NCBI RefSeq assembly: GCF_008973485.1
Contig: NZ_CP031223.1
Location: 744,001 to 808,000 of the forward strand
Direction: 5' to 3'
Length of the DNA stretch: 64,000 bases
Source of the DNA: Psychrobacillus glaciei
Lineage (GTDB): Bacteria > Bacillota > Bacilli > Bacillales_A > Planococcaceae
This document shows positions 6,136 through 61,838 of the stretch, one piece after another; within the stretch, counting starts at the first letter, position 1; every line of letters begins with the position of its first letter. The position numbers and the translations under genes are program-made. Below the pieces are notes generated by a model that was not told the DNA's origin, searched no databases, and saw only the letters and a list, made by a program, of their open reading frames with translations.

Positions 6136-7362
6136 TTGTCCACAACCACCATGCCCATGAAACGAATTTCATATAAAAACATTGCTTCACCAAAAGGCTT
6201 CCAAGCAACTGGCATTCATTGCGGCCTAAAGCACAAGAAAAAGGACCTCGCCCTTCTTATCAGTGAAGTACCAGCTAGCGTTGCAGGTGTTTTCACAACA
6301 AACGCCATCAAAGCCGCGCCACTTCTAGTCACAAAAGACGTCGTATACCAAACCGGCAAAATGCAAGCAATCATCATCAATGCTGGAAACGCCAATGCAT
6401 GCACTGGAAAACAAGGGATGACTGACGCATACGCGATGCAAAAGTTAACAGCAGAAAAATTTGGAATCGCCAACAATTTAGTGGGTGTCGCTTCCACAGG
6501 CGTCATCGGCGAAATCATGAAAATGGAACCTGTAACAAATGGTATCCAACAATTAGAACCTATCGACGAGTTAGAAGGGGCTATTTCTTTCTCTCAAGCA
6601 ATCATGACAACGGACACTGTAACGAAAAACACGTCTTATCAAACGATAATCGATGGAAAAGAGGTAATCATCGCAGGAACTGCAAAAGGCTCTGGAATGA
6701 TTGAACCGAACATGGCGACGATGCTTGGATTTATTACAACAGACGCAAACATTGAGTCCAGCCATCTTCAAACGGCCCTAACATCCATCACTGACATAAC
6801 ATTCAACGCAATTACGGTTGACGGTGACACATCCACTAACGATATGGTGATCGTTATGGCAAACGGTTTGGCAGAAAATAAAACACTGACACCTGACCAC
6901 CCAGATTGGGAAGATTTCATCCAAACACTCCACGCCGTAGCTCAAGATCTTGCTAAAATGATTGCAAAAGATGGAGAAGGCGCAACGAAATTAATTGAAG
7001 TGGAAGTAAAGGGAGCTATTTCCAATGCAGAAGCCCGCAAAATCGCGAAAACAGTCGTAGGCTCACCACTTGTGAAAACAGCCGTTTTTGGCAATGACGC
7101 GAATTGGGGCAGAATTATTGCAGCGGTCGGCTATAGCGGCGCAACCCTTGATCCATACGCAATCACAATTCATATTGGTGTAACAAAGGTTGTGGAAAAT
7201 GGGGAACCAGTACCTTTCTCAGAAAAAGATTTAATCGTCTACTTAAAACAGCCAGAAGTTAAAATTTTTGTAGATATTCATCAAGGTAACGGCCAAGGAA
7301 CTGCATGGGGGTGCGATTTGACATATGACTACGTTCAAATCAATGCAACATACCGCTCCTAA
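6136..7362 (+). CDS. argJ: Bifunctional ornithine acetyltransferase / N-acetylglutamate synthase
   Basis: ArgJ moves the acetyl group from N-acetylornithine to glutamate, recycling it in the arginine pathway, and in some species also makes N-acetylglutamate from acetyl-CoA. The 408-residue precursor has the self-cleavage motif GMIEPNMATML (cleavage before the Thr in ATML, near residue 197) that yields alpha and beta chains, and the GDGEGATK and NDANWGRI motifs of the family. The TTG start at 6136 is nine bases after AGGAGG; the next ATG (6151) is too far from it. argB starts inside its last 38 bases, so translation is coupled. Confidence 0.95.
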   Translation: MSTTTMPMKRISYKNIASPKGFQATGIHCGLKHKKKDLALLISEVPASVAGVFTTNAIKAAPLLVTKDVVYQTGKMQAIIINAGNANACTGKQGMTDAYAMQKLTAEKFGIANNLVGVASTGVIGEIMKMEPVTNGIQQLEPIDELEGAISFSQAIMTTDTVTKNTSYQTIIDGKEVIIAGTAKGSGMIEPNMATMLGFITTDANIESSHLQTALTSITDITFNAITVDGDTSTNDMVIVMANGLAENKTLTPDHPDWEDFIQTLHAVAQDLAKMIAKDGEGATKLIEVEVKGAISNAEARKIAKTVVGSPLVKTAVFGNDANWGRIIAAVGYSGATLDPYAITIHIGVTKVVENGEPVPFSEKDLIVYLKQPEVKIFVDIHQGNGQGTAWGCDLTYDYVQINATYRS

Positions 7363-8104
7363 ACGCATCGTCATCAAGCTAGGGGGAAGTATGCTCGAAC
7401 GTCTGAATGAAAACTTTTTCACCAATTTCAAGAAACTTCAAGCTGCTGGCAATGAACTCATCATCGTCCACGGTGGAGGCCCTGCAATCAATGAAGCGCT
7501 AGCCAAAAATAACATCACTTCGACCACTGTAAACGGCATCCGCGTAACATCTGCAGAAGCAGTCGGTATCGTCCAGTCGACACTCATCGGCAAAGTTAAT
7601 CCCGCTCTCGTTTATGAGCTGAATAAAAGTGGCATTGCTGCAATCGGCTTAAACGGCTACGACAGCAAGTTATTACAATGCACTATATTGCATAAAGAAA
7701 CATACGGCTTCGTCGGGGAAATAAAAAAAGTGAATAGCTCACTACTAAAAACACTACTCGCGAATGGCATCACGCCAGTCATCTCTAGTATTAGCTGCAC
7801 CGAAGAAGGTACGCCACTAAACATCAACGCCGACACCGTAGCGAGCGAAATTGCTCTAGCGATAAAAGCAGAAAGTCTGCAATTTGTAACAGACATCCCA
7901 GGCATCCAAATCAAAGGGGAAGTACAACAAATTGCCACCCCTTCTGCAATCTCAGATTGGATGGTATCAGGTGACGTCTACGGAGGTATGATACCAAAAG
8001 TAACTGCTGCACTAGATTGCTTAGAAGCCGGAATTCCATCTGTCCAAATAGTTGGAGATCAACTAGAAGGAACAACCATTATTCAGCAGGAGGTAATCGT
8101 ATGA
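7325..8104 (+). CDS. argB: Acetylglutamate kinase
   Basis: The second arginine-pathway step: ATP-dependent phosphorylation of N-acetylglutamate. The protein is 259 residues, an amino-acid-kinase fold with the phosphate-binding KLGGSML near residue 18, the substrate loop VHGGGPAIN and NADTVASEIA near the middle, and a C-terminal GGMIPKV loop. The ATG at 7325 lies within argJ, with GGGGGTG upstream; a second in-frame ATG at 7343 is an alternative. It has no N-terminal arginine-binding helix, so it looks like the non-feedback-inhibited short form (inference). Its stop overlaps the argD start (ATGA). Confidence 0.94.
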   Translation: MTTFKSMQHTAPKRIVIKLGGSMLERLNENFFTNFKKLQAAGNELIIVHGGGPAINEALAKNNITSTTVNGIRVTSAEAVGIVQSTLIGKVNPALVYELNKSGIAAIGLNGYDSKLLQCTILHKETYGFVGEIKKVNSSLLKTLLANGITPVISSISCTEEGTPLNINADTVASEIALAIKAESLQFVTDIPGIQIKGEVQQIATPSAISDWMVSGDVYGGMIPKVTAALDCLEAGIPSVQIVGDQLEGTTIIQQEVIV

Positions 8105-48562: not shown

Positions 48563-51500
48563 TTGAAGAAAAAATTAGTTAATCGATTATTTAGTGCGTT
48601 AATGGTACTAGCTATGGTATTCTCGTTGGTTGGTCCGACGATGAGTGCATCTGCAAATACCGATGTAAAACCATTCAAACAAACTATTCCGAACGAAAGT
48701 ACGATGCAGTTAAAGGCAGCGATTGCGGAGCAACTAGATTTGTTGGATGGTGGACCAAAGTTACACAAAGACTTACAAAATTTATCGGGCAATAAAGAAA
48801 TTGCGGTAATCATTCAATTATCTGAAAAACCGGTTGCCCTTGAAAAAGGGATAAATGAATTAAATGGAAAAAAACTCTCAATCTCAGAACAGAATCAAAT
48901 AAGAACGAAAGTACTAGCACAACAAACATCTGTAAAAAAAGAATTAGCAATAAAAAACATTATTATTAAGCAAGGCTATACATTTGATACCGTTTTGAAT
49001 GGTTTTGCAGCGGTTGTTAAAGCGAATGACCTCCAAAAATTACTTACTATTCAAGGAGTAACATTAGTAGAACCTGATGTAATTGTGTATGCATCGGGAG
49101 AATCAAGACTATCTAAACCAACTAAATCCATCATGCCAACGAAAGAAGATATTATAGATGCAAAGATGAATACAAGTATTTCATTTCTAGGAATTGAAAA
49201 GCTTTGGAACGAAGGGATTCAAGGACAAGGCATTAAAGTTGCAGTACTTGATACTGGAATCGATGCGAACCATCCGGAATTTGAAGGGATTTACAAAGGT
49301 GGAAAGAACTTTGTCCCGAATTCATCTACCTATACAAGAAATCGTGCAGATAATGATGCGTCGGAAACTTCACCAGTAGAACGCCCAGCTGGAACACCTG
49401 AGTTTAATGATAAAGGTAGTGCGTTCTATACTTCTCATGGCACACATGTATCGGGTATTATCGCAGCTGGTGGAGCGAACGAATACGGCATTAAAGGGAT
49501 TGCACCGAAAGTGGACCTGTATATGTACCGTGTACTTGGAGCATACGGAAGTGGATCTAACTCTGGTATTATAAAAGCGATTGATACTGCTGTAATTGAA
49601 AAGATGGATGTTATTAACCTATCACTTGGTGGGGAGAATAACTCAGAAACGGATAGCGGATCTTTCGCAATCAATAACGCTATGATGGCTGGGACAATTG
49701 CTGTTGTAGCAACAGGAAACTCAGGTCCAAATAGAGGAACAATAGGAACACCGTCTACATCTCGACTAGGAATTGCGGTTGGAAACACAACAAACCCTGA
49801 AACGATGTATAACGGAGAAGTGAATGTCACAGTTGGTGCCTATAATCTTACGAAAAAACTACAATTAATGGGAACTACTTTTGGGAAAAATTTAGCAACA
49901 CAACTTCCAGGTGAATTTGACTTAGTTGCAATTCCTGGAAACGGAGAAGCAAAGGATTATGAAGGAATCGATGTAAAGGGCAAGGTTGCACTGATTTCTA
50001 GAGGTAACATTGCATTTGTCGATAAAATTGAGTATGCAAGAGCGAATGGAGCAGTAGCAACAATCATTCACAACTCTGCAGCGGGGTCCAATTCACCAAA
50101 AGAATCAGGAGTATTCCTAGGTGATTCATTTGCATTCATTCCAACATTTGATATGTCTTATACAGACGGAGTTGCAGTACGTGCAGCGTTAAATGGTGGG
50201 AAAGGTAATGTTTCTTTTGGTAACTTTGGTTCAACAAAAACATTGGGGGATGAAGTAAACGATTCAAGCTCACGTGGGCCATCCACACCGAACTTTGATA
50301 TCAAACCAGATGTAACTGCCCCTGGTACAAATATTATGTCAACAATCCCAATGTACAAAGCGGATTTCCCAAATGCTGTTTATAATGAAGCATATGATCG
50401 TAAAACGGGAACATCGATGGCTACACCGCATATCGCAGGAATCGCGGCACTTGTCAAACAAGCGAATCCAACTTGGAATGCATTCGATGTGAAAGTAGCG
50501 CTTTCAAATACAGCGAAAATTCTGGATAAAGCGAAATATGATGTATTCGCTCAAGGTGCTGGACGTGTTGATGCATATGCGGCCGCTCACCCAAGTGTAC
50601 TTGCTTATGCGACTGATAAGGCAGTTTTAGACAGTAAAGGTACAGTTGTAGACAACATAAAAGGAACTGTTACTTTCGGTCCACAGCCACTATCAGCAAA
50701 TATTTCGGTTACGAAACAAGTCCTTGTAAAAGATTTGAAGGGTAACGGTGGAAATTATAATGTGACAGTGGATGTTACCAAGACATTTGGTGATGCCAAA
50801 GTGACTGTTGACAAACCGACATTCACGTTGGCTGGTGAACAATTGTTAAATGTTAAATTAACTGGATCAAAAGCTACGGCTCCAAAAGGGTCAGAAATAC
50901 TAGGATATATCCGTATTAACGGTGGAGGTTCCGAAATTTCATTGCCATTTGCAGCTGATTTAACTACCGTAGTTCCAATAGCAATTAAGGATATGAAAAT
51001 AACAGAAACAGACCTATCCTTTAATGGAGATGGTGTGAAAGATGAGGCTGTTCTTTCCTGGACTCTGACCGGCAATGTAACAACCAACTATATTGAGATT
51101 TGGGATATTATGAATCCTGACGGTGGAGAATACGGGGATGGATATATCGGCTATATACATGCAGCTGCTTCACTTCGTGCTGGTTCATATACGCTAGCAG
51201 TAAAAGGACCGTACAAACCATGGAGCAGTGCACCTGTAACAACGATTCCAGATGGTTTATATACGATGGACTTTTCTGCAGCGACATCTACAGGACCAAT
51301 TGGTGCCTACGTTGGACCAATTATTGTTAAAACAACAAAACCAGTAATTACAGGTTCTGTGAAAGATAAAGTTGCAAAAGGGCAAGTGTCCGACAAATAT
51401 ATCGATTACAATAAAGAATTATATAAGTATGATTTGGATTATGATTTGAATGTAAAACTACACGCTTCTTATATTGCGACTATCAATGGGGTAGCAAAAG

Positions 51501-54085
51501 AAGCAGTGAAATTCAATTTAGCACAAGATGGATCATTCTCATTCCCTGTAACTGATGAGACAAATTCTGTAACCGTTAAAGTTACGGATGAGGCAGGCAA
51601 TTTTGGAGAAGCATTAATTTATGAAAAGAAAGAGCCAGAAGCAGTAGTAACACTTTCTGTAAACCCAACAGAACTTGATTTAACTACTGGTGGAACAGTT
51701 CAACTTGCTGTTACAGAAACTTCCACACCAGCAACAGGGCAAGCTACGAACAAAGACGTAACTGCAGCAGCTACGTACGTTGTATCAGATGAATCAGTTG
51801 CAAAAGTTACGAACGGACTTGTAACGGCAGTGGCAAAAGGCTCCACTACAATTACTATTTCTCATGGTGTCAATAAAGTGACTGTAAATGTGACGGTAAA
51901 AGATCCTGTAGTCGAAGCACCAGTAGTAACACTTACTGTGAATCCAACAGAACTTAACTTAGCTACTGGCGGAAAAGTTCAACTTGCTGTTACAGAAACT
52001 TCCACACCAGCAACAGGGCAAGCTACGAACAAAGACGTAACTGCAGCAGCTACGTACGTTGTATCAGATGAATCAGTTGCAAAAGTTACGAACGGACTTG
52101 TAACGGCAGTGGCAAAAGGCTCCACTACGATTACTATTTCTCATGGTGTCAATAAAGTGACTGTAAATGTGACGGTAAAAGATCCTGTAGTTGTGGTGCC
52201 AGGAGTGACACTGACTGCGAACAACACACAACTTGGTTTAGAACCTGGAAAAGAAGCGCAACTTACGATTACAGAAGTAACAACAACTTCAGATGGAAAA
52301 ACAACGCAAAAAGACGTAACAAAAGCTGCTACGTATAAAGTAGTGGATAGTAAAGTGGCTTCTGTAACGAATGGTTTAGTAAAGGCAAAAAATGAAGGAA
52401 ATACAACAATCACAGTTAAATATGGTAAAAATGAATTAACTGTAAATGTGACAGTTAAAGCACCAGTGGTAACACTGACTGCAAACAAAACACAAATTAG
52501 CCTAGAACCAGGAAAAGAAGCACAACTGACGATTAAAGAAGTAATAACAGCAGCAGACGGAACAACAACACAAACAGACGTAACAAAAGCCGCAACGTAT
52601 AAAGTAGCAGATGGTAAAGTGGTTTCCGTAAAGGATGGTTTAGTAACAGCAAAAGCTGCAGGAAGTACAGCAATCACCGTTAAACATGGTAAAAATGAGT
52701 TAACTGTAAATGTGAATGTGATCGAACCAGTGGTGACACTAACTACAAACAAAACAGACATAGTTCTCGATCCAGGAAAAGAGTCCCAACTGACGATTAA
52801 AGAAGTAACAACAGGGGCAGATGGAAAAGAAAAACAGACAGACGTCACAAAATTTGCAACGTATGTAGTAGCAGATGAAAAAGTAGCTTCTGTAAAAAGT
52901 GGTTTAGTTATAGCAAAAGCTGCAGGAAGTACAAAAATCACCGTTAAATATGGTAAAAATGAATTAAATGTAAATGTGAAGGTTATAGAACCGCAAGTAA
53001 CACTGACTACAAACAAAACAGACATTGTTCTTGAACCAGAAAAAGAATCAAAATTAGTGATTAAACAAGTAACTACAACGGCAGACGGTAAAACAAAAGA
53101 AGTAGACGTCACAAATTTTGCAACCTATACAGTAGCAAATAGCAAAGTGGCTTCCGTAAGTAGTACTGGTATAGTAAGAGCAGAAGCTGTAGGCGGAACA
53201 ACAGTCACTGTTAAATACGGGAATAATGAGTTGACTGTCAATGTGAAGGTTGCAGAACCAGTAGTGACACTATCTGTAAACAAAACACAAATTGATTTGG
53301 AACCAGGAAAAGAATCACAACTGACGGTTAAAGAGTTAACTATATCGTTGGATGGAAAAATAACAGAAAAAAATGTAACAAAAGCCGCAACGTATACAGT
53401 TGAAAATAGTAAAGTGGCATCTGTAACGGATGGTTTAATAAGAGCAAAAGCAGTAGGAAGTACAAAAATTACTGTGAAACATGGTAAAAATGAATTAACT
53501 GTAAATGTGACAGTTACAGAACCAGAAGTAACACTGACTGCTAACCAAACACAACTTGATTTGGAACCAGGAAATGAAGTACAACTGACCATGAAAGAAG
53601 TAACAACAACGGTAGATGGAAAAACAACCGAAAGAGATGTTACAACCGCTGCAACGTATAAAGTAGCAGATGGTAAAGTGGCTTCCGTAACGAGTGGCTT
53701 AGTAAAAGCAAAAGCAGAAGGCAATACCATAATCACTGTTAAATACGGTAAAAATGAAGTAACTGTAAATGTGAACGTTAAAGCACCAGTTGTGACATTG
53801 TCCGTAAACCAGACAAAACTTGAGATGAAACCAGGAAAAGAAATACAACTGACTATGAAAGAAGTAACAACAATGGCAGATGGAACAACAACCGAAAGAG
53901 ACGTTACCACCGCTGCAACATATAAAGTAGCAGATAGTAAAGTAGCTTCTGTAAGTAACGGTTTAGTAAGAGCAAAAGCAGAAGGAAATACAACGATCAC
54001 CGTTAAATACGGTAAAATGGAAGTGACAATTGAAGTGATCGTTGGAAATCCTTTAATAATAGGAGATATTCTAAAAGTTAACTGA
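48563..54085 (+). CDS. Giant secreted subtilase with PA insert and nine Ig-like repeats
   Basis: An 1840-residue exported S8 serine protease related to Vpr-type cell-envelope proteases. Signal peptide 1-32 (ASA/N); an inhibitor-like propeptide to ~180; catalytic domain ~205-665 with Asp230 (VAVLDTGID), His292 (SHGTHVSG) and Ser618 (GTSMATPH), interrupted by a protease-associated insert at ~410-560. Fn3-like and Ig-like modules follow, then nine BIG_2-type repeats of 85-93 residues (about 1026-1825), each with an ATYKVADSKVASVTNGLV-type core and a TVKYGKNELTVNV end. No LPXTG, SLH or other anchor is seen, so it may be released or held by the repeats. TTG 48563 is eight bases after AAAGGGGGA. 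Neighbouring regulators may control it. Confidence 0.93.
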   Translation: MKKKLVNRLFSALMVLAMVFSLVGPTMSASANTDVKPFKQTIPNESTMQLKAAIAEQLDLLDGGPKLHKDLQNLSGNKEIAVIIQLSEKPVALEKGINELNGKKLSISEQNQIRTKVLAQQTSVKKELAIKNIIIKQGYTFDTVLNGFAAVVKANDLQKLLTIQGVTLVEPDVIVYASGESRLSKPTKSIMPTKEDIIDAKMNTSISFLGIEKLWNEGIQGQGIKVAVLDTGIDANHPEFEGIYKGGKNFVPNSSTYTRNRADNDASETSPVERPAGTPEFNDKGSAFYTSHGTHVSGIIAAGGANEYGIKGIAPKVDLYMYRVLGAYGSGSNSGIIKAIDTAVIEKMDVINLSLGGENNSETDSGSFAINNAMMAGTIAVVATGNSGPNRGTIGTPSTSRLGIAVGNTTNPETMYNGEVNVTVGAYNLTKKLQLMGTTFGKNLATQLPGEFDLVAIPGNGEAKDYEGIDVKGKVALISRGNIAFVDKIEYARANGAVATIIHNSAAGSNSPKESGVFLGDSFAFIPTFDMSYTDGVAVRAALNGGKGNVSFGNFGSTKTLGDEVNDSSSRGPSTPNFDIKPDVTAPGTNIMSTIPMYKADFPNAVYNEAYDRKTGTSMATPHIAGIAALVKQANPTWNAFDVKVALSNTAKILDKAKYDVFAQGAGRVDAYAAAHPSVLAYATDKAVLDSKGTVVDNIKGTVTFGPQPLSANISVTKQVLVKDLKGNGGNYNVTVDVTKTFGDAKVTVDKPTFTLAGEQLLNVKLTGSKATAPKGSEILGYIRINGGGSEISLPFAADLTTVVPIAIKDMKITETDLSFNGDGVKDEAVLSWTLTGNVTTNYIEIWDIMNPDGGEYGDGYIGYIHAAASLRAGSYTLAVKGPYKPWSSAPVTTIPDGLYTMDFSAATSTGPIGAYVGPIIVKTTKPVITGSVKDKVAKGQVSDKYIDYNKELYKYDLDYDLNVKLHASYIATINGVAKEAVKFNLAQDGSFSFPVTDETNSVTVKVTDEAGNFGEALIYEKKEPEAVVTLSVNPTELDLTTGGTVQLAVTETSTPATGQATNKDVTAAATYVVSDESVAKVTNGLVTAVAKGSTTITISHGVNKVTVNVTVKDPVVEAPVVTLTVNPTELNLATGGKVQLAVTETSTPATGQATNKDVTAAATYVVSDESVAKVTNGLVTAVAKGSTTITISHGVNKVTVNVTVKDPVVVVPGVTLTANNTQLGLEPGKEAQLTITEVTTTSDGKTTQKDVTKAATYKVVDSKVASVTNGLVKAKNEGNTTITVKYGKNELTVNVTVKAPVVTLTANKTQISLEPGKEAQLTIKEVITAADGTTTQTDVTKAATYKVADGKVVSVKDGLVTAKAAGSTAITVKHGKNELTVNVNVIEPVVTLTTNKTDIVLDPGKESQLTIKEVTTGADGKEKQTDVTKFATYVVADEKVASVKSGLVIAKAAGSTKITVKYGKNELNVNVKVIEPQVTLTTNKTDIVLEPEKESKLVIKQVTTTADGKTKEVDVTNFATYTVANSKVASVSSTGIVRAEAVGGTTVTVKYGNNELTVNVKVAEPVVTLSVNKTQIDLEPGKESQLTVKELTISLDGKITEKNVTKAATYTVENSKVASVTDGLIRAKAVGSTKITVKHGKNELTVNVTVTEPEVTLTANQTQLDLEPGNEVQLTMKEVTTTVDGKTTERDVTTAATYKVADGKVASVTSGLVKAKAEGNTIITVKYGKNEVTVNVNVKAPVVTLSVNQTKLEMKPGKEIQLTMKEVTTMADGTTTERDVTTAATYKVADSKVASVSNGLVRAKAEGNTTITVKYGKMEVTIEVIVGNPLIIGDILKVN
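51644..52201 (+). repeat. Near-identical 279-bp tandem duplication in the subtilase gene
   Basis: Ig-like repeats 1 and 2 lie 279 bp (93 codons) apart. They are almost identical in DNA from CAACTTGCTGTTACAG to GTAAAAGATCCTGTAG, including synonymous sites. The other seven repeats have diverged, so this pair arose by recent duplication or gene conversion. Confidence 0.85.
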
Positions 54086-55008: not shown

Positions 55009-55479
55009 TTGAAAGACTGTGATTCTAATTTAATTAACAAGAAAACTTTGATGCTTGAATCAGTATTTACAGGAGAGTTTAAAACGAAAATTATTACAAC
55101 CCAAGGCATCTATCACTCCGAAATGACTGTGAAACAATTGCTCGGCAATGCATGCATTCTATTCGCTTCTACACTAGAAGGACGTATGCAAGCAATAAAA
55201 AAACTAATGAATTATGTCGTTAAAACACCTATACTCATTGATCCAAATGAGATAGGAGCATTTCCAACTATGTCCTATCAACACGTCGAATGTGTTTGGA
55301 TTTTTAATCACCAATTTGAAATAGAGGAAACAGGAAAAGGGGTATCCCTTGTTACATTTAGCAATGGAATGTCTGTTCAGGTTAATGTTTCTAAAAATGT
55401 CCTGTTGAAACAACAACAAAGACTACACACATTAATCGAGACTTACCGCATCATTCATCGTGATTTAGATCAGAAGTAG
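55009..55479 (+). CDS. comK: ComK-family competence transcription factor
   Basis: A 156-residue homologue of ComK, the master activator of DNA-uptake genes. The family's central motifs are present: ACILFASTLEGRMQAIKKLM (B. subtilis has CRFFGSSYAGR), the KTPILIDPNEIGAFPTMS stretch (KPPIMVDP...FPTLS) and VECVWIFNH followed by VTFSNGMSVQVNVS. It is shorter than B. subtilis ComK (192), lacking the C-terminal tail that serves degradation and multimer control there. TTG start eight bases after AAGGGGG. No obvious AAAA-N5-TTTT K-box pair was seen upstream, so autoregulation is uncertain. A strong terminator follows. Confidence 0.85.
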   Translation: MKDCDSNLINKKTLMLESVFTGEFKTKIITTQGIYHSEMTVKQLLGNACILFASTLEGRMQAIKKLMNYVVKTPILIDPNEIGAFPTMSYQHVECVWIFNHQFEIEETGKGVSLVTFSNGMSVQVNVSKNVLLKQQQRLHTLIETYRIIHRDLDQK

Positions 55480-55867: not shown

Positions 55868-57154
55868 TTATTGTACACGTGCAAATCCAAATCCAGAAGC
55901 ATAGTCATCTCCTACTGAAGCACCAATGCCACCTTTAATGTCGACAGCTTTTGCTCGTTTTTGTAACTCAGCACGAAGTTGTATGTTTGTCCAAGATGGA
56001 TTCTGGGCCCAAATTTTTGCTGCTAAACCTGCAACGTGAGGAGTTGCCATGGATGTGCCGCTAATCGTATTGTATCCACCATTATTCCATGTAGAATAGA
56101 TGGAAGCACCTGGAGCGGAGACTTCCACATCCCCTTGTTGGATAATATAATCCCCAGCGGTTGTAGCATATCCGCGGGATGAGAAGTCTGCAACGCGATA
56201 TGTTCCATTTTGCTGAACGTTTTCAAGTGCCGCTACTGCTACAGAGCTGACCAAAGCTCCTGGGTAGCCAATGGAACCTTGGGATGGGCCTGAATTTCCA
56301 GCCGCCGCCACGATTAATACGCCTTTACCATAAGCGTAGTTTACTGCGCTTGAAATTAAAGAATCGTTTGCCGCAGATCCTAAAGACATATTAATCACGG
56401 TTTTTGTTCCAGTTGCTACTGCTTGATCGGCTACATGTCGGATACCGGCAGCAATATCATCCGAAAAACCTGATCCATTGTCACCTAAGACTTTATAAGC
56501 CCAAAGATTTGCCTCTGGTGCCACTCCGTAAATACCTGCTTTATCACTACCACCATCTGCTAATGCAGTACCAGATACATGCGTACCATGTCCATTGCCA
56601 TCGGAACAGCTTCCGTTAATGATAGAAGGAGTACTCGTAAAATTTTTACATTGGTTTACTCGACTGATTAAATCATAATGGCTGATGTTTGCACCTGTGT
56701 CTAGGACAGCTATGTTAATACCTTTTCCGCCAGAAGTAGTTGTTTGATTGCTATTGTTATAGATTGCTTTTATTCCCCATGGTGTTTGTTGGGTAGGGTA
56801 TTCTCCAGCAGTCGTTTCGAATTCTGTAGAGCGAGTATCTGTATCTAAATAAACTTCTTGTACTTTAGTAACAGTAATATTTTTGTTCTTTTGCAACGCT
56901 TCAAATTGCTTTTCATTCATTTCTGTAGAGAACCCATTCTCTGTTAGCTCCCAACGGACCTTATAGGATCCTTTTAAACTAGTTTTCATCGTTCTATTGT
57001 TTGCTTCTACATAAACTCGAAAAGTTTCCGAATCTTGTGTAGAGTTCATGTCATCAATAGGGGAAGTGGTGTTTGCTGCAAAGCTTCCTTGTACTGGTAC
57101 GGCTAATGATCCTACGAGTAGTGCACTTAACAATAAAATTTTCAATTTGCTCAT
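55868..57154 (-). CDS. Secreted subtilisin (sphericase-like S8 protease)
   Basis: A 428-residue exocellular serine protease. Signal peptide 1-26 (SFA/A); I9 inhibitor propeptide ~44-105; catalytic domain from ~112 with Asp152 (IAVLDTGA), His189 (GHGTHVSG), oxyanion Asn287 (AAGNSGP) and Ser368 (GTSMATPH). Cys169 and Cys183 sit as in sphericase and the cold-active subtilisins S39/S41, where they form a disulphide. AAGGAGCT precedes the ATG. It is divergent from an NprR-like regulator, with a 23-bp palindrome in the shared 127-base promoter region, so it is the likely target of the peptide quorum-sensing cassette, as nprA is of NprR (inference). Confidence 0.95.
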   Translation of the reverse strand: MSKLKILLLSALLVGSLAVPVQGSFAANTTSPIDDMNSTQDSETFRVYVEANNRTMKTSLKGSYKVRWELTENGFSTEMNEKQFEALQKNKNITVTKVQEVYLDTDTRSTEFETTAGEYPTQQTPWGIKAIYNNSNQTTTSGGKGINIAVLDTGANISHYDLISRVNQCKNFTSTPSIINGSCSDGNGHGTHVSGTALADGGSDKAGIYGVAPEANLWAYKVLGDNGSGFSDDIAAGIRHVADQAVATGTKTVINMSLGSAANDSLISSAVNYAYGKGVLIVAAAGNSGPSQGSIGYPGALVSSVAVAALENVQQNGTYRVADFSSRGYATTAGDYIIQQGDVEVSAPGASIYSTWNNGGYNTISGTSMATPHVAGLAAKIWAQNPSWTNIQLRAELQKRAKAVDIKGGIGASVGDDYASGFGFARVQ

Positions 57155-57194
57155 TGTCCTAGCTCCTTTTTATTTTTATTATTGGTACACTTTT

Positions 57195-57217
57195 AAACTA
57201 TCATATAAATATAGTTT
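57195..57217. promoter_or_regulatory. Candidate operator palindrome for the RNPP regulator
   Basis: AAACTAT-N9-ATAGTTT lies between the divergent subtilisin and regulator genes. It ends at the first base of the -35 box at 57217, a position suited to an activator of the regulator's own promoter. On the other strand it sits just upstream of weak -35/-10 sequences for the protease. Confidence 0.5.
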
Positions 57218-57245
57218 TGTTTATTGGGAAAATTTCGACTATTAT
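57217..57245 (+). promoter_or_regulatory. Promoter of the RNPP regulator gene
   Basis: TTGTTT (57217-57222), a 17-base spacer and TATTAT (57240-57245), 37 bases before the GTG start. Confidence 0.6.
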
Positions 57246-57281
57246 AGAGTTAATACTATTATTTATAAAGGAGGTGAGATT

Positions 57282-58499
57282 GTGCAAATAGGTTCGTTGA
57301 TAAAGTTTCATCGTTCAAAACAAGGAATGACTCAGAGTACGCTTTCTATGGGGATTTGTTCGATTCCCCACCTCAGTAAAATTGAGAATAATAGTAAAGA
57401 AGCAAATAAGGAAACAATACGATTATTGCTAGAACGATTAGCGATAAGCTTACAAAATGTAGAAGATAGTTCCCGAAACATTCGACATGTATTAGCCGAA
57501 TTTTTAGCTCATATTCAATATTGCGAGGAAGAGAAAGTAACAGAAGCGTTCTTGCAATTAGAATATTATCAAGAAATTGTTCTATTTACTGACTATATAT
57601 ATCTAAATGAATTATATAAACTGAGATACTATCTGTTTATAAAGGACATAGCTAAAGCTGAAAAACAGTTAAAGTGGTTGCAATTTCAAAAACAGAATTT
57701 TTCCCAACATGAAAAGTATTTACTTTCTTATTTTAGTGCGTTAATTTTAGTTTTAAGGGGGAGGTATGAAGAAGCTGATGAGCTACTTTCTAACGTTGTC
57801 CAAGAACATATAGGATTGGGTTCTTTTGAAGGAGAAATATATTATCATTTAGCAGTTGTGAAAGGATATTTAGATCAGTCTAGTCAGGCTATACTTTACG
57901 GTAAAAAAGCGTTGCAATTTTTTAAAGAACAATATAACTTTAAAAGAATTATTTATGCCCTCATGTCACTAGCGATCAATTATTCACGTTCAAAAGTTTA
58001 TAATGAAGCGCTTGAAACTTATAATTATCTTTTACGAATAACAGAAATGTTTCCTCATGGTAATTTGCTTCCTCAGATATATCATAATATTGGTGACCTA
58101 CATCATAATATGGGGAATTATTCAATTGCACTTGCTTATTTTAAAAAAAGCTCTACTATTATGCCTAAAAACAATGAAAACTATCTACTTTGTTTATATA
58201 ATGTTTCCCAGACTGAGTTCAGATTGGAGCAGTGGTCTGAAAGCAAAGAGAGTTTTGAACTTTTAAAAGAGGAAGCACTAAAAATGAAAGCGTTACATTA
58301 TCGGTTATACGCAATATTTTATTTATTATTGTTAAATGACCAAAAAGAAAAAGCCATGTTATTTTTAGAGAAAAAAATAATGCCATTTACATCCAAGCGA
58401 GGCGAGTTAAAAGAGGCACATCATCATTTTTCAAACATCTTAGCCGATTATTATAAACAAGAAGGAGAATTTGAAAAGGCTGTCCAATTTATTATGTAA
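57282..58499 (+). CDS. NprR-like RNPP transcriptional regulator (HTH + TPR)
   Basis: A 405-residue peptide-responsive regulator. The XRE helix-turn-helix is at 1-62 (QIGSLIKFHRSKQGMTQSTL, IPHLSKIENNSKEANKETI), and the rest is tandem tetratricopeptide-like helices to the end, for example IYYHLAVVKGYLDQSSQAIL, QIYHNIGDLHHNMGNYSIAL and FSNILADYYKQEGEFEKAV. Length and layout match NprR (about 420 residues) rather than PlcR (285). The real start is GTG 57282 behind AAAGGAGGTGA; the frame upstream from 57048 runs into the divergent protease gene. A 48-codon peptide gene follows 15 bases after its stop, the regulator-peptide order seen in RNPP systems. The likely target is the divergent subtilisin. 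Confidence 0.85.
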   Translation: MQIGSLIKFHRSKQGMTQSTLSMGICSIPHLSKIENNSKEANKETIRLLLERLAISLQNVEDSSRNIRHVLAEFLAHIQYCEEEKVTEAFLQLEYYQEIVLFTDYIYLNELYKLRYYLFIKDIAKAEKQLKWLQFQKQNFSQHEKYLLSYFSALILVLRGRYEEADELLSNVVQEHIGLGSFEGEIYYHLAVVKGYLDQSSQAILYGKKALQFFKEQYNFKRIIYALMSLAINYSRSKVYNEALETYNYLLRITEMFPHGNLLPQIYHNIGDLHHNMGNYSIALAYFKKSSTIMPKNNENYLLCLYNVSQTEFRLEQWSESKESFELLKEEALKMKALHYRLYAIFYLLLLNDQKEKAMLFLEKKIMPFTSKRGELKEAHHHFSNILADYYKQEGEFEKAVQFIM

Positions 58500-58514
58500 A
58501 GGAGGTGTATACTA

Positions 58515-58661
58515 ATGAAAAAAGCAATTCTTTTGATGCTAATAATGGCTATAGCTATAGCTACAAATATGAATGCTGAGAAAGTAGAGGCAGCAATAGA
58601 TTCTAATGAAATATACGAGATGAATTCCTTTCCGATCCATCCACCAATAGTCAAAGACTAA
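58515..58661 (+). CDS. Exported signalling-peptide precursor (NprX/PapR-like), 48 aa
   Basis: A short gene with an excellent ribosome site: AAAGGAGGTG overlapping the regulator's stop, seven bases before ATG. The 48-residue product has a Sec signal peptide (MKKAILLMLIMAIAIA), a polar middle (EKVEAAIDSNEIYEM) and the C-terminal end NSFPIHPPIVKD. In RNPP systems such pre-peptides are secreted, trimmed outside and re-imported by Opp to bind the TPR regulator; the active part lies at or near the C-terminus. The P-x-IV of HPPIVKD recalls the NprX heptapeptide SKPDIVG, which is suggestive only. A terminator follows at 58729, so regulator and peptide form one operon. Confidence 0.75.
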   Translation: MKKAILLMLIMAIAIATNMNAEKVEAAIDSNEIYEMNSFPIHPPIVKD

Positions 58662-58728: not shown

Positions 58729-58761
58729 AAGAGAGATCCAGTCAAGGGTCTCTCTTTTTAT
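58729..58761 (+). terminator. Terminator of the regulator-peptide operon
   Basis: An 11-bp stem AAGAGAGATCC / GGGTCTCTCTT (one wobble pair), 6-base loop, then TTTTA. Confidence 0.8.
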
Positions 58762-58916
58762 TAACTTCAAGTAAGATATGATTAGAAAAACTGTGTGCGA
58801 GATACATGATAAAAAATACCTTCCATTGCATGGAAATCCATATTTCTTTATTATAGGACTAAATACATAATAGTTTGAATGATGAAATCATTAATCTATC
58901 TTTTGGAGGAAAAAAA

Positions 58917-61838
58917 GTGAAAAAAGTTTCAAAAGTATTCGTGTCGCTCGTTTTGTTATTAAGTTTTTGCCCTACTTTAATAGGTACAGAACAAGCGAGT
59001 GCAAAAGTTGTGACGTCATCAAGTGAAAGTCTAGAAAAAGTTTTCCAGCAAGAGTCAATGGTATATATTGACCCTTCCTATGGGGGAGTGCTTACCTCAA
59101 CTTCTGATTTATATGGTATGTTAAATCAAGCAAAAAAACAATATAACAAAATGAGGAAAGAAATAGTAGAATCACACGATGTTAATAAGGAAACTCAACT
59201 AACATTATTGGATAGTCTATACGAAGAAAGAATTACAAAGGGCTTAGTTGGATATATTGACGCAATGAATTATGCAACAAAATATTTAGATCCTATTATG
59301 GAACAAATTCATGTTGCTGAACAAACAGGAAATTTGGATGAACTAGAAAAAGAGTATCATAAGTTGTCTTATCAATTAAAAGAAAGAACCTCCATCTTAT
59401 ATCGTTTTAGAGGAAAAGTGACACGAGATCTTATAGTTAGTAAATATAAACTCCCAGCAGATAGTAAAAGAGCCGAGTTAATCATACCTGTAACGATTAT
59501 TATGAAAACAAATGAAGCAGAATTATATCTGAGAGAAGGGAAAGTAGAGGAAGCAAGAAAGGTTATTCTTTTAGTCGAAGGGTTGATGACTAATTTGCCT
59601 GCTAATTCTACTAAACTAGTCTTATCTACATTAACCAAAAAAGTTGTCGATATTGAAAAACAATTAGGAACACAATCTACTCCTGTCCCAAACACAGGAT
59701 CGGAAGCAGAAGTGAGAATTTCCACAATTCAAGATGTCATTGTGAAGCAAGGATATGCATTGCCCACTACAGTTGCAGCTAAGATGAGTAATGGATCTAC
59801 ACGTAGTTATAGCGTACTTTGGCCGAAGCAATCGACCTTAATTTCCGGAGAATTTACTCCCGAAATTCAAGTGAACGGAAAGACATATATTATTCATTTA
59901 TCAGTTGTGGAGAATATTAATTATCAGAATGCTATGTCGTTGCAATCCATCGTAGAAACACTTCCAGAACTGATTGCAGTTAATAACTATGAAGACATAA
60001 ATACAGCTATTGGGCTATTTGGTAGTTTAAATGATGAAGGTTTATCTTTTGTTACTGAAGAAGTGAAAAACAAACTGGAACGACTTGTTCAAATGATGGA
60101 AGATCAACTAAAAGTTGCAAATGTCATCGGAAAAATTAATTCCATACCAGATGTCACTGAGTTAAGCGCAACAAATGTAGACAGCATTATGGAAACAAAA
60201 TTAGCTTTTGAAGAATTGTCGGAACAATTACAGCTCATGATTCCAACAGCATTAGGGGACAAACTTAAAGCAAGTATAGAATGGGTTGCTCTTCATACAG
60301 AAAAACAAGCATTAATCCAAGCTGCCAACGATGCACTAAGTAATTTACCTAGTCTTGTGAATGTCCAAACAGAAAACCTTGAAACCATTCAAACTTTAAT
60401 CACCGAAATTCAAGGGAAAATAGAGGTTGCTTTGTCAAAAGGGGCAACTTTAGAAAATTTCCCAAATTATTCAGCTTATCAAAACGTAATAGTAAAAGTG
60501 GAGGCTCTAAAAGTTCAGCAAGCTATTGCGAGTTTAACAGGACCAAATGATTTAAAGTTAATTGAAATACGAAATCGTTACAACTCGCTCTCAGAGGAGC
60601 AAAGAAGCTTTATCAGTAATTATAGTAAGTTATTAGTATTTGAAGATGCTACAAAGTTTTCACCGATTACATTAAATGAACATGGAGAGGTACAACTTCC
60701 TTATACAGTGGATGTAGAAATACTAGGCGATAATGGATGGACTTATACAGATGGTTTGCTAAAGGCTCCAATTTCAGAGACTGGTCGAGTATCAACAGTT
60801 CAACTGAAGCTTAGTTTGGATGGTAATTCGTGGACTTCCAACGAATTTGACATTGTTATTCCAGCAACCGATTTGCAAGCTCCAATTGCAAAAGTAGGAT
60901 TTCCACATACATTGAATATGACAAAAAATTCAGTTGCAGTGGAAATGGCATTTGACGAGAAAGTGAATGTACAAGCTCTTTTAGTTGAAGGAGATGGAGC
61001 AAATGATCCTACAATCGATGAGTTAATCTCGGCAGTAGGATCTTATAAACGTCTTGCTACGATCGAGGAAGATAGCAGTCAATCTTTTACTTTTGAAGGC
61101 CTAAGTGTAGGAAAAACCTATACCTTATTCTATTTTGCTGAAGATGAATTAGGTAATAAAATGAAGAATCTCGCAAAATATTCTTTTTCTATTCCAAATG
61201 TATCGACATTGGAAAGTCTAGCAGTTTCAAATTTTGATTATGCAACAATTTATGCTAGTCAAGCAGTTCTAATCAGTAAACCAATGGGTAGTTCAAATTT
61301 CCAAGGGAACAGTAAAAAATTCACTATAAATGATGGAGTAAATACGATAAATGTAGATTTATATTGGAATATACCTCAAAACGAATATGCAACTACTCCT
61401 GCGATGTCTATTGGGTCAGCTGTCGAAAGCTATATTCAAATGAATAATCTTTATGGACGTGCTACTTGGGCGGGCAGTTTTGGTGGAGATACTTTCAGAA
61501 TTGGAACATTCAATATAGGGAAATCTTCCTTTGTACATGTAAGTGGTCCAAACTGGAATGACTTCTTCGATACGGATCTTGCTATTGGTAGTGACGAGGA
61601 TACATCAAAGAATCGTAGTTTTAGTGTAAATGATGGCTTTAATATAGCAGAAATAAATTTAAACGACGATTATTACACGATGGATCAATTGTTGGAGAGC
61701 TTAAATAGTCAGTTGATTTCTGCGAATGTGAAGGTCGAAGCGATTAAAAAGAATGACAATCATTTCGTCTTAATAGCTACTGAGCTAAATGTTCATATTA
61801 CAGTAGATGGTAAGGATAAGAATGATTTTTTTAACTAG
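58917..61838 (+). CDS. Third SbsC-type surface protein
   Basis: A 973-residue exported protein with the SbsC-like N-terminal domain and different downstream modules. Signal peptide ~1-29 (ASA/K); wall-binding helical domain ~60-250 (YGMLNQAKKQYNKMRKEIVE, YHKLSYQLKERTSILYRFRG, KVTRDLIVSK). A short Ig-like domain (~265-330) and long helical segments (~335-565) follow, then beta domains. The last ~190 residues hold two similar modules opening KKFTINDGVNTINVDL and RSFSVNDGFNIAEINL, a pattern like the flagellin/hook-protein IN motif. It could be a minor S-layer component or a surface adhesin (inference). GTG 58917 is six bases after GGAGGA. Confidence 0.7.
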   Translation: MKKVSKVFVSLVLLLSFCPTLIGTEQASAKVVTSSSESLEKVFQQESMVYIDPSYGGVLTSTSDLYGMLNQAKKQYNKMRKEIVESHDVNKETQLTLLDSLYEERITKGLVGYIDAMNYATKYLDPIMEQIHVAEQTGNLDELEKEYHKLSYQLKERTSILYRFRGKVTRDLIVSKYKLPADSKRAELIIPVTIIMKTNEAELYLREGKVEEARKVILLVEGLMTNLPANSTKLVLSTLTKKVVDIEKQLGTQSTPVPNTGSEAEVRISTIQDVIVKQGYALPTTVAAKMSNGSTRSYSVLWPKQSTLISGEFTPEIQVNGKTYIIHLSVVENINYQNAMSLQSIVETLPELIAVNNYEDINTAIGLFGSLNDEGLSFVTEEVKNKLERLVQMMEDQLKVANVIGKINSIPDVTELSATNVDSIMETKLAFEELSEQLQLMIPTALGDKLKASIEWVALHTEKQALIQAANDALSNLPSLVNVQTENLETIQTLITEIQGKIEVALSKGATLENFPNYSAYQNVIVKVEALKVQQAIASLTGPNDLKLIEIRNRYNSLSEEQRSFISNYSKLLVFEDATKFSPITLNEHGEVQLPYTVDVEILGDNGWTYTDGLLKAPISETGRVSTVQLKLSLDGNSWTSNEFDIVIPATDLQAPIAKVGFPHTLNMTKNSVAVEMAFDEKVNVQALLVEGDGANDPTIDELISAVGSYKRLATIEEDSSQSFTFEGLSVGKTYTLFYFAEDELGNKMKNLAKYSFSIPNVSTLESLAVSNFDYATIYASQAVLISKPMGSSNFQGNSKKFTINDGVNTINVDLYWNIPQNEYATTPAMSIGSAVESYIQMNNLYGRATWAGSFGGDTFRIGTFNIGKSSFVHVSGPNWNDFFDTDLAIGSDEDTSKNRSFSVNDGFNIAEINLNDDYYTMDQLLESLNSQLISANVKVEAIKKNDNHFVLIATELNVHITVDGKDKNDFFN

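Follow-up and report, generated by a model that had tools for sequence, protein, structure and literature searches.

A predicted peptide-responsive circuit of an NprR-like receptor, a PIxPP pheromone and a subtilisin promoter in Psychrobacillus glaciei and its relatives

The stretch of DNA considered here (the window) comprises 64,000 nucleotides of Psychrobacillus glaciei contig NZ_CP031223.1 (positions 744,001 to 808,000), and the module of interest, at window positions 55868-58661, consists of a subtilisin gene, a divergent regulator gene and a small gene for a putative signalling propeptide. The subtilisin gene (55868-57154, minus strand) encodes a secreted, sphericase-like protein of 428 aa belonging to the Peptidase_S8 family (Pfam PF00082), for which the closest solved structure is sphericase 1ea7 (E 3.5e-158, query residues 121-428 against chain residues 3-310), and it is predicted to be the target of its divergent neighbour. 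That neighbour (57282-58499, plus strand) encodes a receptor/transcription factor of 405 aa matching the helix-turn-helix (HTH) family HTH_3, with a score just above the Pfam cut-off, as well as the tetratricopeptide repeat (TPR); its GTG start at 57282 is preceded by a strong ribosome site (AAAGGAGGTGAGATT). The ribosome site of the peptide gene (AAAGGAGGTG, 58498-58507, plus strand) starts within the TAA stop codon of the regulator (58497-58499). The peptide gene itself (58515-58661, plus strand) begins with an ATG 15 bases past this stop, i.e., in the same frame and five codons on, and ends with a stop codon finishing at 58661; its 48 codons specify a Sec-type start, a spacer and a C-terminal pheromone core (MKKAILL... 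to ...SFPIHPPIVKD). The predicted core FPIHPPI (58629-58649, plus strand), the mature ends of which are putative, corresponds to the conserved columns of 93 propeptides and to a tail that is ordered in AlphaFold models. Between the divergent genes, on the minus strand, lie a -10-like TATGAT of the subtilisin promoter (57200-57205), recognized by column conservation in 22 unique close intergenic sequences including that of the window, and, at a fixed spacing from it, a predicted operator TTTTCCCAATAAACAAAA with the core TTTCCCAA (57215-57232), which overlaps the would-be -35 position and is indicated by its footprint in relatives and its single exact copy in the genome.

Of 261 genomes from the family to which the window belongs, 45 have a relative of the regulator (E <= 1e-40); matches in plasmid records numbered six, every one below 33% identity, and phage records gave none. 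Among the best 80 of 176 relatives (loci L078-L157), 76 carry behind the regulator a Sec-like small open reading frame (ORF) with P[IV]xPP within its last 16 residues, where an ORF was counted if it passed a crude signal pattern (basic start, hydrophobic stretch) rather than SignalP; this filter was likewise applied to the small ORFs of the distant family, Bacillaceae-type and further subtilisin loci and to the propeptide count below. The same test was positive in 2 of the 7,779 other ORFs of 22-130 codons from these 80 loci, both being one and the same stretch in two Neobacillus genomes, and this comparison supports the peptide quorum-sensing reading given in the preliminary description of the locus. 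The four loci failing the test are L084 (which has AIRPPV), L147 (at a contig end), and L083 and L156 (no peptide). A signal-peptide-type small ORF also directly follows the regulator in 28 of 29 close relatives (L004-L032), close loci being those with regulators 49-66% identical to that of the window. When L078-L157 are combined with L033-L068, 112 of 116 loci have a peptide in which at most eight residues follow PP; the two sets overlap, so that the 116 are not independent cases. With L064, L069 and L070 excluded as other receptors, the count of distinct propeptides is 93. The invariance of Pro-Pro in the 93 follows from the selection rule (PP near the end). Two positions before PP stands I (in 88) or V (in 5), and the position immediately before PP is mostly occupied by L, Q, H or Y; V, I or L follows PP in 81.

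Precursors range from 24 to approximately 100 residues (SHP-like 28-mers in Lysinibacillus, ~40 to 55 residues in many others), and the part they share is the PIxPP-type core. Receptors of distant family members (~30% identity) are accompanied by peptides ending APHILPPL, GPNILPPI, SIPTILPPL or PIEVMPPQT. Four distinct precursors are multi-copy, with three copies of IPIHPPIG or four copies of FPIHPPIL; in the three compared codon by codon, the repeats are the same in amino acids and differ at several synonymous sites, so that the peptide is what selection acts on. A dozen named genera have the core. Among their members is Lysinibacillus sphaericus, and it is this species group that is the source of the crystallized protease sphericase. 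The three genes and the overlap of stop codon and ribosome site described earlier were confirmed, and conservation of the peptide core in relatives extends through the family and to Bacillaceae-type genera outside it, contrary to the lack of conservation that would have refuted the pairing; however, what is conserved of the C-terminal end FPIHPPIVKD is the PIHPPI core and not the final VKD. Judged from these alignments, the peptide is the conserved heart of the locus.

The subtilisin is linked to the regulator and peptide in two gene orders. A divergent subtilisin (63-78% identical) adjoins the regulator in 22 of 23 close loci, a same-strand upstream subtilisin was recovered by a script filter in 11 of 13 distant family loci and additionally in L066, and among Bacillaceae-type loci the subtilisin lies upstream on the same strand in 34 of 61; the gene order is thus flipped between groups and the neighbourhood of subtilisin and regulator retained. 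L066 has two tandem sphericase-like genes ahead of its regulator (L066:2040-4907). Joint presence is also seen across 19 genomes of the genus, where the subtilisin occurs in seven, all seven with the regulator, eleven genomes have neither, and one, P. antarcticus (G125), has the regulator only. This orphan receptor is intact, and the peptide, the subtilisin and the 18-base box are all missing from the genome. A further 20 subtilisin loci were collected (19 genomes with no regulator match in the family search, plus a second copy in G078), of which 17 adjoin a related regulator and a PP peptide; another, L211, is at a contig end, and the remaining two, L210 and L218, stand beside other receptors and are described below. 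Together with the promoter box described below, the adjacency in two gene orders and the joint presence in the genus support the subtilisin as the target, as was originally suggested.

The alignment of divergent intergenic regions reveals one near-invariant stretch, TTTTCCCAATAA[AT]CAAA on the subtilisin strand, and the TTTTCCCAATAA box is present in the subtilisin promoter of every close locus with both a regulator and a divergent subtilisin. Its distance is steadier to the subtilisin than to the regulator (e.g., 68 versus 422 bases in L040), the exception being the Chryseomicrobium group, where over 300 bases separate the box from the subtilisin and 145 separate it from the regulator. In close relatives a TATGnTA -10 stands at a fixed spacing from the box with no -35 consensus, and loci of the Mesobacillus type have a TTGATA/TATACT promoter-like pair, with the box well upstream of it. 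Every one of 45 same-strand loci (45 of 45) has the core TTTCCCAA ahead of the subtilisin. In 300 shuffles, which permuted two-base blocks and preserved dinucleotides only roughly, the count averaged 0.58 and never exceeded 3. The core also precedes the subtilisin in 16 of 17 further same-strand loci. Of 28 subtilisin-less loci in the L078-L157 set, 26 have the core, in either orientation, in the 300 bases preceding the regulator, versus 14 of 649 other 300-base stretches of these loci; the 26 still include an eight-base match ahead of the orphan L083 regulator that was rejected as an operator because it lies at the end of a coding frame.

The 18-base box has a single copy in the genome of the window (57215-57232). 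Two-mismatch copies occur at seven further places, versus four for a reversed control pattern. A scan of 36 genomes (25 of the 32 close-relative genomes, which bear the regulator, and 11 regulator-less members of the genus) placed the box, with at most one mismatch, at the regulator locus in 23 of the 25, and one-mismatch copies away from the regulator locus at four places over all 36. The two regulator-bearing genomes lacking it are G125, which has lost peptide and subtilisin, and G070, where the box differs at two places. The single copy of the box in the genome of the window suggests a circuit with a single target. A stretch identical to the operator core, TTTTCCCAAC, is found inside the regulator (window 57699-57708), where it forms the codons of Phe140-Ser-Gln and is taken as coding; TTTCCCAA at +418 within the regulator in 26 of 28 loci compared likewise represents Phe-Ser-Gln codons and was left out of the box counts. 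A perfect intergenic palindrome, AAACTAT-N9-ATAGTTT, the exact form of which is unique in the genome, looked like an operator but was dropped for the TTTTCCCAATAA box next to it, as among the relatives only L036 has a similar one. Open-literature searches with the letters of the box or of the peptide core gave nothing relevant, and the main text of PMC3325205, a study of NprR, does not contain the words "box", "palindrom", "consensus" or "binding site".

The predicted fold of the receptor is NprR-like. NprR structures, apo and peptide-bound, lead the structural matches of the model (5dbk and 4gpk, with template modelling (TM) scores on the target of 0.84 and 0.80), and Rap chains rank next, the match to the NprR/Rap superhelix covering approximately 345 aligned columns; PlcR (3u3w) ranks 41st with a TM score on the target of 0.50. 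In a sequence search of solved structures, NprR is the nearest natural protein, outranked only by an engineered TPR protein. An N-terminal HTH followed by a TPR superhelix is the architecture of RRNPP receptors, and the superhelix is assigned to the nine-TPR type from the fold match, the TPRs not being counted singly. The main ligand contacts of NprR are another matter. Residues R126, Y165, W167, H201 and R343, which the accessible text of PMC4970707 assigns to peptide binding and the closed form, align to K121, G160, Y162, Y196 and A337 and are not conserved, in a low-identity pairwise alignment in which positions may shift; N306, at the peptide site in TPR-7, and N275 align to N300 and N269, and D309 to L303. 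N269 and R222 are invariant in the receptor alignment and R115 is nearly so. From this pattern of contact residues, the groove seems to be built like that of NprR and to read another signal, so that the NprR likeness proposed earlier holds for fold and architecture but not for the ligand contacts. Of the Spo0F contacts D107, Y118, E188 and Y223, which align to F102, K113, E183 and Y218, two of four are kept, and a Rap-like phosphatase role is not supported by this alignment. Ten of the 12 invariant columns fall within the first 35 residues (the HTH part), a clustering that a fixed operator would predict. In a tree in which long branches were flagged, 32 rows of the PP-peptide receptor group, among them the peptide-less L083 and L156 and the peptide-less tandem copy of L051, are separated from NprR and from both paralogues of the genome with moderate support (80/90; the branch is not starred).

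Because the peptide gene is in frame with the regulator, the two can be folded as one chain when the stop is read as a residue. In the chain from the window, receptor blocks have a predicted local distance difference test (pLDDT) score above 80, which drops to 34 and then 55 in the linker and recovers to 83 over PIHPPIVKD, the final nine residues; in the chain from Neobacillus niacini (39% identical to that of the window), the last ten residues, QADPIYPPVG, reach 85 after 37 and 50. In these models, the network expects the pheromone core at a fixed place.

The combined observations point to a dedicated RRNPP-type peptide circuit made up of a PIxPP pheromone, its receptor, the box and one subtilisin promoter, a reading to which a probability of roughly 0.83 is assigned. 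Sequence analysis directly shows the genes, their linkage and the conservation of both peptide core and box, together with the predicted fold; for the steps that would join these parts, namely export, trimming, import, binding, and activation rather than repression, we infer the following course. The 48-aa propeptide would leave the cell by the Sec pathway, be shortened there to a small peptide around FPIHPPI, return through an oligopeptide permease and be bound within the TPR superhelix of the regulator. The peptide-loaded regulator would then bind TTTTCCCAATAA beside the subtilisin -10 and activate that single promoter. In same-strand relatives, the whole row of subtilisin, regulator and peptide genes would be driven from one box. 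Since the box precedes this row, and precedes the regulator in most subtilisin-less loci, positive feedback is likely and the loop is probably self-amplifying.

Several observations weigh against this reading. The subtilisin was not seen in the stretch examined for 27 of the 61 Bacillaceae-type loci, among which L121 is truncated 215 bases before the regulator, and the regulator is kept with no peptide in Psychrobacillus antarcticus (L043/L083) and in L156. In L210 (G016), a sphericase-like gene is divergent from a distantly related receptor followed by a small ORF ending VPEIIVEG, with no box, and in L218 the second subtilisin of G078 (74% identical) stands beside a paralogous receptor, also with no box. 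L199, the lone exception among the 17 further same-strand loci, has a one-base core variant (TTTCCCGA) in the same place. No experimentally known site was found with which the box could be compared. The orientation of the box and its overlap with the -35 position suggest activation and are compatible with repression too. Finally, an ordered tail in a covalent fusion says nothing of position in the groove.

The alternative that survives best is also compatible with the proposed circuit, namely that the main role of the protease in it is maturation of the propeptide, the subtilisin counting as a target in no other sense. Peptide maturation by associated proteases is reported for other RRNPP systems: the PlcR-controlled NprB matures PapR at least in part (PMC4701985, in the part available), and Vpr, AprE and Epr are named for PhrA and PhrC/CSF (PMC11343458, in the part available), so the subtilisin may be both target and maturase; moreover, P. 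antarcticus lacks the peptide and the subtilisin together. However, 25 of the 61 Bacillaceae-type loci have the peptide and box core with no subtilisin in the examined stretch, and other proteases could do the trimming. Maturation as the main role is a tentative proposal, on balance somewhat doubtful. A stronger form, in which the subtilisin would be both the sole pheromone-induced gene and the pheromone-releasing enzyme, the Pro-x-x-Pro-Pro core would resist it, and the multi-copy precursors would be polyproteins opened by the product of the circuit, is a shade more doubtful. It would make the module a switch with positive feedback through a single gene, whose private PP-coded signal is common to two bacterial families with small dialect changes. 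A proline-rich core would be a poor substrate for subtilisin.

It is unlikely, by a clearly wider margin of doubt, that the regulator is a repressor of the subtilisin which the imported peptide inactivates, induction then coming by relief. RRNPP regulators include both activators and repressors, and in close relatives the box overlaps the -35 position, where a bound protein could block polymerase. Yet the lack of a -35 consensus in that promoter is what an activator-dependent one would show, the Mesobacillus-type box upstream of its promoter-like pair is in the place of an activator, and NprR, the closest fold, activates when peptide-bound according to the accessible text of PMC4970707. The location of the box over a missing -35 in one group and upstream of a promoter-like pair in the other therefore favours activation, as judged from promoter layout. 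Still less credit can be given to the box belonging to another factor (a sigma factor or global regulator, for instance): the genome has just one copy of the 18-base form, exact copies are lacking from the 11 regulator-less members of the genus, which have two copies with one mismatch at other places, and the distance between box and promoter (or -10) differs between groups, for which reason the box as the promoter core of another sigma factor was rejected. Least probable of all, to the point of being hardly credible, is that the small ORF is a secreted peptide of another role (antimicrobial, protease inhibitor) and that the regulator senses something else, given that the PIxPP-type core is the shared part of precursors of such different lengths, that this core is the part ordered by AlphaFold in the read-through chains, and that the gene order matches that of RRNPP pairs.

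The proposed circuit resembles NprR-NprX of the Bacillus cereus group in its receptor with HTH and TPR superhelix, its adjoining peptide gene and its secreted protease target. The two differ in the pheromone (SKPDIVG for NprX, a PIxPP core here), in the target (the neutral protease NprA, here an S8 subtilisin) and in breadth, NprR controlling at least 41 genes according to the available part of PMC3325205, whereas a single 18-base box is found in the genome here. PlcR-PapR similarly combines a receptor-peptide pair with a secreted protease under its control that partly matures the peptide (PMC4701985, in the part available), but PlcR has five TPRs (PMC12700828, in the part available), and the 405-aa receptor falls outside a five-TPR definition. 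Rap-Phr systems share the same superhelix, but Rap is without an HTH. In the PlcR system, nprB adjoins plcR-papR, and PlcR has another pheromone, its own box and a wide regulon.

According to the available text of PMC9765709, NprR receptors occur in 21 genera, and every large NprR propeptide (17 of 17) contains repeats. RRNPP_detector is reported to have yielded 21 candidate subfamilies that were new (PMC10075063, in the part available). The module would fit the definitions used in both papers. Since RRNPP systems are established, gene order and multi-copy precursors included, the module is classed with them as a subfamily-level variant beside NprR, and not as a new kind. The new regulator-peptide pair announced in the preliminary description is accordingly retained as a pair, but it is not isolated and belongs to a widespread subfamily. 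The main texts of PMC9765709 and PMC10075063 contain no mention of Lysinibacillus, Planococcaceae, Solibacillus, Sporosarcina or subtilisin, and that of PMC10075063 none of Neobacillus or Mesobacillus, although the supplements may list these receptors. A search for sphericase together with quorum gave no literature match, and a search for quorum sensing in Lysinibacillus sphaericus gave nothing on this system among the matches listed.

At this locus every part of one communication system can be read, from the receptor and the pheromone core to the operator and the target gene. The core PI[HYQL]PP[IV] makes synthetic inducers easy to choose, and the box can serve as a reporter. The variable residue before PP (L, Q, H or Y) in a fixed frame makes pheromone specificity directly testable, and what appears to be quorum sensing cut to a single target would allow the public-good logic of secreted proteases to be tested without a large regulon.

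Other receptors were encountered as well. A second type is present in L070 (5001-6299, the genome's own paralogue) and L218 (4987-6315), with different downstream peptides (...EEEVPRPTSIEYSSFI, ...ELPRPTEVKPFK) that carry a VPRPT or LPRPT stretch and possibly constitute a sister pheromone family. In loci of the Chryseomicrobium/Tetzosporium type (L051, at 6646-7722, L052, L054 and L055), a second receptor, approximately 35% identical, follows the peptide gene in tandem, and the script found no PP peptide for these tandem receptors. Within the window, a terminator-like hairpin (58729-58756, plus strand) lies 3' of the peptide gene, where one was found compared with 0.6 expected in shuffles. A ComK homologue (Pfam PF06338; window 55009-55479) lies just past the subtilisin gene. 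The module is flanked by two very large exported proteins, one at window 48563-54085 (~1,840 aa), which is subtilase-like and has a long repeat array, as judged by eye and from a weak tblastn match, and the other at window 58911-61838, with SbsC_C and Big_4 domains.

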